Assembly (NCBI RefSeq): GCF_000970285.1
Contig: NZ_CP009516.1
Coordinates: 2,025,036 to 2,089,035, forward strand
Direction of reading: 5' to 3'
DNA: 64,000 nt
Origin: Methanosarcina horonobensis HB-1 = JCM 15518
Lineage (GTDB): Archaea > Halobacteriota > Methanosarcinia > Methanosarcinales > Methanosarcinaceae
The notes beneath the pieces are model-generated. The model was not told the origin of the DNA. It did no database searches and saw nothing but the letters and a program-made list of their open reading frames with translations. The translations under genes and the position numbers were made by a program. This document shows, piece by piece, positions 2,831 through 59,581 of this stretch. How positions within the stretch are numbered: the first letter of the stretch is position 1; each line of letters opens with the position of its first letter.

Positions 2831-4078
2831 TTACATAGGGCTTGGTCTTCCAGCCATAAGATCTTCCGTGCGTCTGGTTACTTCGTTCTTAAACTGTTTG
2901 ATCTTTTCAGCCTGGTCACGCTGTGCCAGTTCACTCTTCGCTTTACTGACCACTTCTTCACTGGGGACTCCGGCTCTGTTCATCTTCCACTGGAACTTGA
3001 TGCTGGACCACTGATCAGCTATATCTTTAAACCTTCTGTACTCCATTTTATGAGGCGAAAGGTCAAGCTGTTCTTCAATTACCCGGTTTACATAGTCTTT
3101 ATTTGGCTCGAAAACGACCAGCGGCTCTATAATATCAGCCTTTACGATATCCCTTATGTCACGACCTTCGTATTTTTCAATGAGATTCGCACAGGCATTG
3201 AAGTGGGAGATCTCCATTTTTGCAAAGCTCTCCCAGATGCCCCTTATTCTTGAATCTGTTTCAGTCTGTGCGCAGGAGTAATAGATGTAGGCCTCACAGA
3301 GCTGCATGAGTGCTGACTTCTCAAGCATTGTTTCCTTCGGGTCACCGAGTAACCCGTACTGGGTGACGTGCTGTTCTTCGACATCAGCAATCTCGGAGTA
3401 AAGCTGCCTTGCAAGCTCATCTGAATACATGAACCCGTGAGACTTATAGAAAAGCTCGGTCTGCTGTTCACCTGCAACGATAGTAAGATAGTTCATCTTG
3501 GTCTTGATGTCGGCCGTATCTTTATTGTAATGCTTGCGCATGGTATCATCCGGGTGGCGGTGTTCAACGCTTGTCGGCCTTCCGGGTTTTACCTCGGTCT
3601 TACCCTGAACAATTGACTCGTAATCGCCTCCTTCAAGATAGTCGTAAAGGCAACTGTAGCGATACAGGTGATCAAAGTCCTCAATCAGAGCAAAGTCCAG
3701 AGTCTGCTTTACATATGGGTCGGGCTCATTCTTGGCAAGGTTTGCAGTGAGATCGACAGCTACCTGCTCATAGCCCAGTGTGGTCTCTATAATAGTCTGG
3801 TTAGCAGGATTTAACCAGTTAACAGTTTGCTGCTGGAAGGAATCAATGCGTCGAATTAACGCCATCTGGCGTTTAATCTCAGGATCGGAAGTCATTCTCT
3901 CTATGGCGTGAGACATAAGGACAGAAGCGTTCTCAATCCCATTCATAAGGATCACGCGTGTCCGGGTATATGCATCGACAGCCTTCTTGTCATACGGAGC
4001 TTTGACCAATTCTTTCCAGTTCATAAACTGATCTTCTATCGGGATGCTATCCATGTCAAAAGGTCTGAACTGTGCCAT
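2831..4078 (-). CDS. Duplicated ferritin-like domain protein
   Basis: About 415 residues, largely helical and soluble. Two ferritin-like halves can be seen. The first has glutamates at about 100 and 106 and EDFDH at about 135-139. The second has EEQH near 236, a helix with CEAYIYY near 263, and KMEISHF near 290. Spaced Glu and ExxH-type residues are typical of carboxylate-bridged di-iron four-helix bundles, so an oxygen- or peroxide-related role in the cytosol is possible, but the substrate is unknown. I prefer the second ATG (4078): the strong site GGAGG lies 8 nt before it and only 2 nt before the first ATG (4084). It is divergent from the membrane-protein pair across a 556-bp region that carries the iteron array. 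Confidence 0.7.
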   Translation of the reverse strand: MAQFRPFDMDSIPIEDQFMNWKELVKAPYDKKAVDAYTRTRVILMNGIENASVLMSHAIERMTSDPEIKRQMALIRRIDSFQQQTVNWLNPANQTIIETTLGYEQVAVDLTANLAKNEPDPYVKQTLDFALIEDFDHLYRYSCLYDYLEGGDYESIVQGKTEVKPGRPTSVEHRHPDDTMRKHYNKDTADIKTKMNYLTIVAGEQQTELFYKSHGFMYSDELARQLYSEIADVEEQHVTQYGLLGDPKETMLEKSALMQLCEAYIYYSCAQTETDSRIRGIWESFAKMEISHFNACANLIEKYEGRDIRDIVKADIIEPLVVFEPNKDYVNRVIEEQLDLSPHKMEYRRFKDIADQWSSIKFQWKMNRAGVPSEEVVSKAKSELAQRDQAEKIKQFKNEVTRRTEDLMAGRPSPM

Positions 4079-4400
4079 TACCATATCCTCCGGAATTCTT
4101 TACCAACACAGCTCTTTACAGGTGATCAAATTTATTAATAGTTCCAGCTGCTGGAGATTCCAGTTGCCGGACACAGACCCGCAAAAGAGCGAAACCGTAA
4201 CCTGTTAACATTATTGCTCAGCAGAGTACCCCACATATCTGCAATAATTCCCGCCTTAAACTTCACTGACCCCAACTGCGGGCAAGGTGATTGGCACGTA
4301 ACTGATGTTTTTAATTTCTTTTATTTTCTACTTATTTAGCTTAAATTCGACTTAATTGGATTATATGTATAAATTTAACCTATATAAAATCCGTCATATA

Positions 4401-4500
4401 ATAATTTCAATATGAGTAAAGTGATTTCATGCAGGATAGTATAGTTTCGAAGTGAATGGAATAGTTTCAAAATGAGTAATATAGTTTCGATACGATATAA
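4401..4500. repeat. Five contiguous 20-bp iterons
   Basis: Units begin at 4401, 4421, 4441, 4461 and 4481, each exactly 20 bp. Each opens with RTRRTTTC and most continue with an AA-TGA-like second half; the 4421 unit is the most divergent. A degenerate sixth unit may follow at 4501. There are no spacers, so this is not a CRISPR. Near-two-turn phasing places repeated sites on one DNA face, as expected for cooperative protein binding. The array lies in the divergent region 4079-4635, about 135 bp before the first membrane-protein gene. The rest of that region is AT-rich with no gene. Confidence 0.7.
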
Positions 4501-4635
4501 TAATCGAAGTAATATAAAATTAAGTAACAGCTTTACGACATGATATTCCAGCTGTGTAATTGTCACGAAAATATTCCTCTTCATAGGGAGGGCAGACTCA
4601 AGGAGAATAGCGCCTAAGGGGGAAGTACACTTACA

Positions 4636-5745
4636 ATGGTAGACACTTCAGATATGTTGATTTTCTGGGCCGTAGTCATAGCCCGTTTCTTGATACCGCT
4701 TTCCATTCCTCGCTACCCTCTCCCAGGCGTGCTTGCCTGCCTTATCCTTGACGCTGTAGACCAGACGATCTTCCAGCTGTTTACGAACCTGCCTCTTGAA
4801 GGTTACCAGAGCTACGATAAATCCCTTGATATTTATTACCTGAGTATAACCTACCTTTCGACCCTGCGAAACTGGTCTAACCTCTACGCGTTCAAACTGG
4901 ATCGCTTCCTTTTCTACTACCGGCTGGTTGGTGTGGCGCTCTTCGAACTCACACAACTGCGCCCTCTACTGCTGGTTTTTCCCAACACCTTTGAGTACTT
5001 CTTTATTTTTTATGAGGCAGTTCGCCTGAAATGGAACCCGAAAATGCTGACAAAAAACAAATTGATAACTTCGGCAGCCGTGATATGGATTTTCGTCAAA
5101 CTGCCACAGGAATACTGGATCCATGTCGCTCAGATGGACACCACAGACTGGATCAGGGCAAACCCCTCAAACGCCCTCATCCTGATCGCCTATGCAGCTT
5201 TCCTGCTCGGACTGGCATGGTGGCTCTTACGGGATCTACCTCCCATGAGACCGGGCCTTGAAATTGAAGCCCTACCCGTGGCAGCTGCCCCGATTTTCCC
5301 ACCCGTGCCAGAGAACGTAAAGGAACAGCGGGAGCGCCTCATAAACAAGCAGGTTATCGAAAAGATCGTGCTGATCTCTCTAATTACAATTATCTTCGCC
5401 CAGATTCTTCCGGGGGTGCGGGCAAGTAATCTCCAGCTTGCAACAGGTATGGCTATCCTTATCATAATAAATACAGCTCTGAGCCACTGGCTGGTCAGGA
5501 AAGGAAGACACTGGCGTTCTATCGCAAGGGAATTTATCGTGATGTCCGCAGTAAACATGGGTCTGGTCCTGCTTGTTGACTACTTCCTGCCCAGATATGA
5601 CGGCTCGATCAACCTCGGAGTCACACTTTTCTTTGTCCTGCTCCTGACCCTGATCATCACTCTCTACGACCGCTACTGGCAGCTCCATGCAAAAAACAAT
5701 GTCAACAGCAGGGATTCAGGGAAAGAGGGAGAAAAAAGTTCTTAA
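4636..5745 (+). CDS. Multi-pass membrane protein, paralogue A
   Basis: A 369-residue integral membrane protein that I do not recognise. Hydrophobic segments lie at about 5-25, 95-120, 140-165, 180-200, 245-265, 275-295, 305-325 and 330-350. Conserved blocks shared with the next gene include DTSDM at the N-terminus, IPRYPLPG, YLSTLRNWSNL, QEYWIH/LH and DWIRANPSNALIL. The central loop (about 205-245) differs between the two copies, and the last 20 residues are charged. The start MVDTSDM matches MADTSDM of the paralogue. The gene is followed by about 300 bp and then its paralogue, implying a tandem duplication with separate promoters. Function unknown. Confidence 0.8.
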   Translation: MVDTSDMLIFWAVVIARFLIPLSIPRYPLPGVLACLILDAVDQTIFQLFTNLPLEGYQSYDKSLDIYYLSITYLSTLRNWSNLYAFKLDRFLFYYRLVGVALFELTQLRPLLLVFPNTFEYFFIFYEAVRLKWNPKMLTKNKLITSAAVIWIFVKLPQEYWIHVAQMDTTDWIRANPSNALILIAYAAFLLGLAWWLLRDLPPMRPGLEIEALPVAAAPIFPPVPENVKEQRERLINKQVIEKIVLISLITIIFAQILPGVRASNLQLATGMAILIIINTALSHWLVRKGRHWRSIAREFIVMSAVNMGLVLLVDYFLPRYDGSINLGVTLFFVLLLTLIITLYDRYWQLHAKNNVNSRDSGKEGEKSS

Positions 5746-6049: not shown

Positions 6050-7180
6050 ATGGCAGATACCTCGGATATGGTGATTTTCTGGGCTATATTTATGGCTCGT
6101 TTCTTTGTACCGCTTACCATTCCTCGTTATCCTCTCCCCGGAATTATAGCTTGTCTGGTCCTTGATGCTGTTGACAGGGAAATTTTCCAGCTGTTTACCG
6201 GCCTACCTCTGGACAGTTATCAGGGATACGATAAAGCCCTAGACATTTATTACCTGGCTATCATGTATCTTTCGACTCTGCGCAACTGGTCGAACCTCCA
6301 TGCCTTCAAGCTAAACAGGTTCCTTTTCTACTACAGGCTTGTTGGTGTGACTCTTTTCGAGATAACAAATCTGCGACCCCTGCTGCTCATATTCCCCAAT
6401 ATCTCTGAGTATTTATTTATTTTTTATGAGGCAGTCCGCCTGAAATGGGACCCGAAGGTGCTGACAAAAGAAAAACTAATTGTTACTGCAGCCCTTATCT
6501 GGATTTTCGTCAAACTGCCCCAGGAATACTGGCTACATATCGCCGAAATGGACACAACCGACTGGATCAGGGCAAACCCCTCAAATGCTCTCATCCTGGT
6601 TGTCTGGGCTGCAGTCATGGCTATAATGGCATGGTGGATCTTGCGGGACCTGCCTCCCATGAGCTCTGGTTTCTCAGTTACTGCTCACTATGCAATTTTT
6701 AAATTTGACGGCCCGCAGGCATCCAGAGTGATAGACAACTATACGAGTGAGAGATTTTTTGATGATTTTCTGAATCATGAACTGATCGAGAAGATTGTGC
6801 TGGTCTCTCTCCTGAGCATAATCTTCGCGCAAATCCTTCCCGGAGTCCGGGCAAATGATGTCCAGATAGCAATCGGTGTATCCATTCTTATCATAATAAA
6901 TACGGAATTGAGCCAGTGGCTTGCCAGACACGGGACACACTGGAAGTCAATAGTGAGAGAGTTCATTGTAATGGCTATTGTAAACCTCATCATGGTTCTG
7001 CTCTTCGATTTCCTTCTGGCAATGTATGGTGGCTCAATTAACCTCCTTAACACTCTATTCTTCACCCTCCTCCTGACCCTGAATGTAACTCTCTATGACA
7101 GGTACCGGAGGGTGCAGATCTGGAGCCTTGCAACAAGAACCAGGCGTGAAGAGATGGATAAAAAATTAGAAGAGGCTTGA
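6050..7180 (+). CDS. Multi-pass membrane protein, paralogue B
   Basis: A 376-residue paralogue of the preceding membrane protein, with the same order of hydrophobic segments and the same conserved blocks (IPRYPLPG, YLSTLRNWSNL, DWIRANPSNALIL, QILPGVRA). A longer frame begins at 6023, but I chose the ATG at 6050: it gives MADTSDM, aligned with MVDTSDM of paralogue A, and has GGGAGG upstream. The central loop (about 215-250) is longer and unrelated to that of A, which suggests the loop is where the copies have diverged in function. Unrecognised family; role unknown. Confidence 0.8.
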   Translation: MADTSDMVIFWAIFMARFFVPLTIPRYPLPGIIACLVLDAVDREIFQLFTGLPLDSYQGYDKALDIYYLAIMYLSTLRNWSNLHAFKLNRFLFYYRLVGVTLFEITNLRPLLLIFPNISEYLFIFYEAVRLKWDPKVLTKEKLIVTAALIWIFVKLPQEYWLHIAEMDTTDWIRANPSNALILVVWAAVMAIMAWWILRDLPPMSSGFSVTAHYAIFKFDGPQASRVIDNYTSERFFDDFLNHELIEKIVLVSLLSIIFAQILPGVRANDVQIAIGVSILIIINTELSQWLARHGTHWKSIVREFIVMAIVNLIMVLLFDFLLAMYGGSINLLNTLFFTLLLTLNVTLYDRYRRVQIWSLATRTRREEMDKKLEEA

Positions 7181-7198
7181 AAAATGGAGCTCAATGTT

Positions 7199-7250
7199 TA
7201 AACTCTTTTTAAACTCTTTTTAAACTCTTTTTAAGTAACTCTTTTTAAGT
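7199..7250. repeat. Tandem 11-bp repeat AAACTCTTTTT
   Basis: Three head-to-tail copies of AAACTCTTTTT and a fourth variant (AAGTAACTCTTTTT) follow the stop codon of paralogue B. The repeated T5 tracts could act as an archaeal intrinsic transcription stop, which needs only U-rich runs. That role is inference. Confidence 0.6.
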
Positions 7251-30398: not shown

Positions 30399-30666
30399 TC
30401 TGATGGTTCCTGATTAATCGATTTATATTATTCGGCACATCCGAAGTAGGAGCTTTTGTTTTTCTCTTCTGCGCCTTGCAGGACTGAAACGGCTTGCCAG
30501 CTAGTACGTACTTTATTAATCCTGGAAGCCGCTTTTGAATATATAGGTAATAGAGCCTCTGCCAGCCTGTCTGGCAGCCCTCCTCAAAAAGAAACGGAAA
30601 GAAGAAGACAGAAAATTAAGGAAAAAAAGAGTCTTGACAAACATTAAAACATTTCACAAAGCTGGA

Positions 30667-58753: not shown

Positions 58754-59581
58754 TTAGAGAAATAATTCACCATTTGTCCAGAGTTCATCAAATTTTGTCT
58801 TGAATCGCTTTGCATATGATTCATTATATATTCTTGTCATACCGAGGTTTCTACTCATATTGAACTGGTCTTCAATATCGATCAGGGTTATCTTAGAATC
58901 GATGATTGTAAAATTGTATTCGGTTTCTAAAATTCTTACTTCCATCAGATCCTTAAAATCGCGTTTAAATGACAGATCTTCTATTGAATCAATAAGCTCT
59001 TTTAATGATGGCAGTAGTTGTGATCCCGGATCTAAAATTTTAACTTTTATGCCGCGCTGTACTAAACTCATATAAGCTTTGCTAAAGGTGGATACTGAGG
59101 CATCATACAGCTCCGATCTTCCAGGCTTGTACTTAATATGAATTACAACACACATTTCTTGCTCTATTTTCTCAAAAGATGAAGTCACCATTTCATTTAG
59201 TTCATTATTACGAAACCTGTCAGGCCAGAAGATAGTTTCAACATTTTGTGGGGAACTGTCGTTGCAAAGTTCCCTTTCGATTTCATCAAATGTTTCTTTG
59301 AGAATTTTTAGCTCATTGAGTGTTTCTTCCTCTTTTCTTTTGTACATGAGTTTAAATGCGCTTTTAGGATCAACCGCCCGGTATCTCTGTGGTCGTGATG
59401 GCTGGATTTCGACAAGCTCATAATTTTTGAGGGCTTTGAGAACCTCGTAGATCTTTCCTATAGGGACTTTCGATGCATGTGATAATTTGCTTGCTTCTAT
59501 AGAATCCTGTTTTAGAAGTGTCAGGTAAACTGAACTCTCATACCTGTTCAATCCAATTTTTGCAAGTAATTTTTCATCCAT
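58754..59581 (-). CDS. TrmB-family transcription regulator
   Basis: 275 residues. The N-terminal winged helix (IGLNRYESSVYLTLLKQDSI, then ASKLSHASKVPIGKIYEVLKALKNYELVEIQPSRPQRYRAV) is typical of TrmB proteins. A short coiled coil follows (about 80-105), and then a phospholipase-D-like effector region that in relatives binds a sugar or other small ligand. It is divergent from the methyltransferase at 59808, which it may control. GAACGATAT occurs twice in the space between (59630-59638 and 59718-59726) and could be the binding site. Confidence 0.83.
   Translation of the reverse strand: MDEKLLAKIGLNRYESSVYLTLLKQDSIEASKLSHASKVPIGKIYEVLKALKNYELVEIQPSRPQRYRAVDPKSAFKLMYKRKEEETLNELKILKETFDEIERELCNDSSPQNVETIFWPDRFRNNELNEMVTSSFEKIEQEMCVVIHIKYKPGRSELYDASVSTFSKAYMSLVQRGIKVKILDPGSQLLPSLKELIDSIEDLSFKRDFKDLMEVRILETEYNFTIIDSKITLIDIEDQFNMSRNLGMTRIYNESYAKRFKTKFDELWTNGELFL

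Follow-up and report, generated by a model that had tools for sequence, protein, structure and literature searches.

The question raised by this locus is why a divergent intergenic region of Methanosarcina horonobensis should carry five direct 20-bp units in a row, and whether they act on the flanking promoters, on an RNA, or on replication. To our knowledge, few operators and regulators have been defined in methanogens. The window, i.e., the whole stretch of 64,000 nucleotides that was analyzed, belongs to a genome of 5.02 Mb on a single contig, and the features needed below are as follows (bit scores for the units are from a matrix trained on 14 sites from 8 other genomes).

2831–4084, minus strand: ferritin-like gene, 417 aa, divergent to the left (open reading frame with weak family and fold matches)
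4183–4324, probably minus strand: conserved block of ~140 bp, a possible untranslated leader or small RNA (alignment and model search)
4381–4389, probably minus strand: leftward TATA-like element, named by resemblance and conserved in the 15-genome alignment
4401–4420, plus strand: unit 1 (site A), the array's first and a strong match, 19.2 bits
4421–4440, plus strand: unit 2, in phase but degenerate, 3.0 bits
4441–4460, plus strand: unit 3, 9.8 bits
4461–4480, plus strand: unit 4, a strong match, 17.6 bits
4481–4500, plus strand: unit 5 (site B), adjoining the rightward promoter-like element, 8.0 bits
4505–4519, plus strand: rightward BRE/TATA-like element of m1, CGAA...ATATAAAA, which we take to be one from its resemblance to the archaeal consensus
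4636–5745, plus strand: m1, a membrane-type protein of 369 aa, divergent to the right (no family matched)
6053–7180, plus strand: m2, a paralogue of m1 by sequence, whose promoter is without sites

The first-pass annotation had described five exactly phased 20-bp units with a shared RTRRTTTC at 4401–4500 and had argued that they were not AT-rich drift, and both statements hold. The motif occurs five times at exact 20-bp steps, with units starting at 4401, 4421, 4441, 4461, and 4481 and TTTC cores at 4405, 4425, 4445, 4465, and 4485. In this register 6 of the 20 columns are invariant, and in the best register (start 4395) there are 7. By invariant columns and by fraction of the unit alike, this is the top five-unit phased array in the 64-kb window (periods 10–40). 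Of 2000 order-1 Markov simulations of the local sequence (260 bp each), none matched at period 20 the 7 columns that the array has in its best register; when any period of 10–40 was allowed, 4 attained the same invariant fraction. RTRRTTTC is found 23 times on the plus strand of the window, and over spacings of 10–40 its pairs there fall only at 20 (four pairs) and 40 (three pairs). Genome-wide, RTRRTTTC-N12-RTRRTTTC yields five pairs, four of them inside the array, and the reversed control yields 0. Tandem Repeats Finder scores the array as just 2.5 copies (score 58).

The consensus drawn from 33 sites is TTTC[AG]A-N-AT[GA]A[GA]TA, and it contains a partial dyad with its best center at base 7, where only 43% of positions pair over the 33 sites. 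With the matrix from other genomes, units 1 and 4 rank first and second among all positions on both strands of the window. The third-best match lies outside the array at 58852 on the minus strand (17.5 bits). The paralogue promoter had been said to lack the units, and indeed the best matrix score in the m2 promoter is 4.4 bits.

Read from the sequence and the alignment, the array sits between two divergent core-promoter-like elements, which bears out its earlier placement in a divergent promoter region. The centers of the outer sites, 4411 and 4491, are ~26 and ~25 bp from the centers of the two TATA-like elements. In 12 of the 15 genomes, site A begins 22–24 bp away from where the leftward TATA-like element starts; in the other three, site A falls below the score cut-off, so the distance is unscored. 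On the right, the last site ends 6 bp before the BRE-like CGAA in the window, and the two-site species described below have no TATA-like element as near site B as this. Because the element at 4381–4389 is nearly symmetric, it could also serve rightward, in which case it would drive m1 and the repeats would act as RNA within a long untranslated leader. We consider this improbable because on neither strand does the array outdo its shuffles in folding (z +1.33 and +0.65), because m1 has a BRE/TATA-like element closer by, with a similar stretch before the site-less m2, and because genomes without m1 retain both site A and the TATA-like element.

The first-pass annotation had also proposed a look in close relatives with the same gene order for the same array, and the outcome is mixed. 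We aligned the intergenic DNA of 15 genomes (the window and 14 others), and what recurs is the TATA-like element at 4381–4389 with site A, along with site B in genomes that have m1. Homologous sites are present in relatives, but the exact array of five 20-bp units was not seen in any of the 14 others. Two sites 20 bp apart are found in eight m1-bearing relatives (G005, G008, G014, G020, G021, G022, G027, and G028); in five of these both sites are above the score cut-off, and in three the spacing was read from the sequence. The distance from A to B is 80 bp in the window, with three units between, as compared to 60 bp in G006, 102 bp in G007, and about 59 bp in G004, and the steps in G007 are mostly 16 bp. 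The strict 20-bp period is therefore not general among the arrays; it holds for that of the window and for the m1-proximal pair. A further genome, G018, has two clear sites and a partial third in 20-bp steps at the matching place, near an M20 peptidase gene that by eye resembles a neighbor of the window locus, and these sites persist without m1, the block, or the ferritin-like gene. We conclude that the array is a real, locus-specific, operator-like element and an expanded form of a two-site element shared among Methanosarcina genomes.

In the tree of m1 proteins, the window genome, G004, G006, and G007 fall in one clade (99/98), which also includes G013, G024, G025, and G029, all without the block. 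On this tree, the simplest history would be a single start of expansion in the clade, with later changes and losses. Such an expansion could be neutral, i.e., a functional ancestral pair could have been multiplied by tandem duplication or slippage to leave units 2–4 functionless. Site number and spacing do vary between close relatives, unit 2 has decayed, other short tandem repeats occur upstream of m1-type genes elsewhere, and eight other rows of the Tandem Repeats Finder listing for the window equal or exceed the array's score of 58. Yet the exact 20-bp phase is retained even though the units have diverged, unit 4 is the second-best site match in the window, and G006, G007, and G004 likewise retain the site that stands 20 bp ahead of B. 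We regard a neutral origin of the middle units as unlikely.

The two outer sites differ in how they are conserved and in what they accompany. Among seven two-site relatives with m1, identity at site B is 84% versus 53% on either side of it, whereas identity at site A is 67%, no better than the 66% of the preceding 12 bases. In the three genomes that have the ferritin-like gene and are without m1, site A agrees with the consensus at 11 of its 14 positions in every case, and site B does so at 6, 7, and 12. From this pattern of conservation with and without m1, site B tends to go with m1 and site A with the leftward unit, with G018, which keeps both without m1, as the exception. The gene m1 is present in 17 of 30 genomes of the genus, 12 of which have the block; in the other five the block is absent and sites were not seen beside m1. 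The ferritin-like gene is found in 11 of the 30 (best E ≤ 1e-180), each of which has the block next to the sites. These associations of genes, sites, and block rest on few independent losses.

The 417-aa protein matches no Pfam family and is only a very weak match to the NCBIfam iron exporter MbfA (18.6 bits against a cut-off of 450). Its predicted model has two sets of four long helices (pLDDT 76.0), for which Foldseek gives weak matches to ferritin-like folds (e.g., 2fzf, probability 1.00, E 0.14) and no match at E ≤ 0.001, so that on the model a ferritin-like identity is plausible. The ferritin-like gene of G021 matches in two pieces in different frames (L029 and L109) and may be interrupted, and short ferritin-like fragments occur in G010 and G023. 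Ferritin-like proteins 53–64% identical are encoded on contigs labeled Armatimonadetes/Armatimonadota, Chloroflexota, and unnamed bacterium (L031, L033, L035, L036, and L038), and these sequences hint at either cross-domain transfer or mis-binned contigs. For m1, Pfam and NCBIfam return no known family, and the predicted model is of low confidence (pLDDT 46.2). One in-frame TGA is recorded for the m1 homologue of G028 (L050, G028:C2:1393506-1394615). Upstream of m1-type genes, G024 and G014 carry short tandem repeats that differ in sequence from the array and have 11–14-bp units (approximate coordinates, L014 about 1230–1460 and L016 about 1615–1735), and an 11-bp tandem repeat of 4.5 copies directly follows m2 (window 7197–7248).

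The conserved block occupies part of the interval from the leftward TATA-like element to the ferritin-like gene and is found once each in 15 of the 30 genomes of the genus by a model built from 13 of these 15, with 105 candidates scored per genome. In four of the 15 assemblies, the block is kept where the ferritin-like gene was not found, and two of these assemblies are incomplete (G004, 79%; G008, 75%) and two are 99% complete (G027 and G028). Leftward orientation is favored because G-U pairs would become A-C on the other strand, and because of the TATA-like element. The block has no match in Rfam. Two main stems are predicted, in which 94.3% of cells pair versus 93.8% in shuffles; covariation is not above shuffles (126 of 500 reach it), and the leftward strand of the window's block folds worse than most shuffles (z +1.73, with 193 of 200 shuffles folding equally well or better). 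A structured RNA is unproven. A short leftward frame in the block, starting ATG-CCA in many genomes, was a reading by eye that seemed broken in some genomes and was set aside. The block could represent a leader, a small RNA, or DNA to which a protein binds. One tentative reading, which we rate as possible but well short of favored, is that the array mainly drives the block as a leftward, single-copy small RNA specific to Methanosarcina, on whose transcript the ferritin-like gene rides, and that the number of sites tunes expression between species. This reading would fit the persistence of the block, the leftward TATA-like element, and site A where the ferritin-like gene is not found.

To look for an operator beyond this locus, we searched for the sites in pairs. 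With one mismatch allowed, paired sites across 30 genomes number 97 versus 102 in the reversed control (table sums), so no regulon is detected. In a second search, with a model of the pair (R1) covering 44 positions and 150 candidates scored per genome, the 12 matches under E 0.001 are all at the array locus (11 genomes) or in G018, and again no genome-wide regulon is seen. The best R1 match in the window's own genome lies within the array and is weak (E 0.0067), since expansion has taken the array away from the two-site form, and it is outranked by a match elsewhere, in G008:C263 (E 0.0048). G018 also contains 15 equal-scoring partial matches (model positions 6–26, 15.3 bits) that are probably a dispersed repeat there. 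A gapped pattern of paired sites has no match in the window's own genome, and a single exact site occurs at genome position 4579169, which by eye seems to be inside coding sequence. No match to an NrpR-like pattern was found in the intergenic region, and in the literature searched no title or abstract opening names the locus.

Plasmid replication iterons are direct repeats of ~20 bp, as in the array, and the first-pass annotation had raised replication or partition sites as an alternative. The likeness is in form only. Unlike plasmid iterons, the array is chromosomal and lies between promoters, in what is an ordinary chromosomal intergenic region in the relatives, and it is not adjacent to an initiator gene or origin. 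The two Orc1/Cdc6 genes that score above the cut-off map to 1 kb and 4.93 Mb of the contig, ~2 Mb or more from the array at 2.03 Mb. We find this alternative unsupported and give it next to no weight.

The layout is closer to that of archaeal Lrp-type operators, which are clusters of imperfect sites separated by two or three helical turns, in many cases with a site near the BRE (PMC2995911). In common with the Lrp/AsnC-family operators treated there (Ss-LrpB and Ptr2), the array has imperfect sites at a spacing of about two turns (20 bp being slightly under two turns) and a total length of ~100 bp. Two further points of likeness are less certain: the sites are only partly dyadic, and the 6-bp approach to the BRE-like CGAA in the window, an element named by resemblance, is not kept in the two-site species. 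Unlike those operators, the array has five direct units between two promoters, and their number and step vary by species. By analogy of layout, the putative regulator may belong to the Lrp family. Within the same genus, the TTCGN7-9CGAA sites of the MsvR operator of Methanosarcina acetivorans lie just upstream of the BRE/TATA (PMC3729527), a position shared by the array. There is no TTCGN7-9CGAA motif in the intergenic region at 4085–4635, and the single match in the window is at 30431.

Taken together, we assign a probability of roughly 0.6 to the view that the array is an operator at which a putative sequence-specific regulator would bind side by side at intervals of about two helical turns, and that it was expanded from a two-site form. 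The regulator, probably dimeric, would bind a site of ~14 bp, TTTCRANATRARTA, and neighboring molecules 20 bp apart, or about two turns, would touch each other. The outer site centers lie ~25 bp from the TATA-like centers of the two putative divergent promoters, the leftward one serving the block and the ferritin-like gene and the rightward one serving m1, and at either or both of these a row of bound regulators could bring in TBP/TFB or keep it out. The ancestor would most simply have had a pair 20 bp apart, which tandem duplication expanded in one clade; in the window this expansion would have reached five units by exact 20-bp steps, with the decay of one unit. What is observed is the sites themselves, how far apart they stand, that relatives have them, and that their numbers differ, whereas the protein, its cooperativity, the sign of its effect, and the control of both promoters are what the model proposes.

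We favor an operator because the phasing is beyond chance and units 1 and 4 hold the top matrix ranks; because the distance from site A to the TATA-like element, the conservation of site B, and the 20-bp pair in eight relatives point the same way; because the block stands beside the sites in 11 of 11 genomes with the ferritin-like gene, sites persist in G018, and the site is partly dyadic; and because archaeal Lrp-type operators share the layout. Counting against it are the failure to detect a regulon, the unexceptional conservation of site A, the poor unit 2, the 16-bp steps of G007, the lack in two-site species of a TATA-like element as near site B as in the window, the five of 17 m1 genomes without the block or seen sites, the sites of G018 without m1, and the other short tandem repeats upstream of m1-type genes in other genomes. 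In addition, with 10.5 bp to the turn, each 20-bp step covers 1.9 turns, and the phase would drift over five units.

The neighboring block may be an undescribed RNA. The locus itself offers natural variants of one operator with two, three, five, and six or seven sites in 16- or 20-bp steps, and these variants could help to fish out the putative regulator and could show how output at an archaeal TBP/TFB promoter depends on site number and phase.
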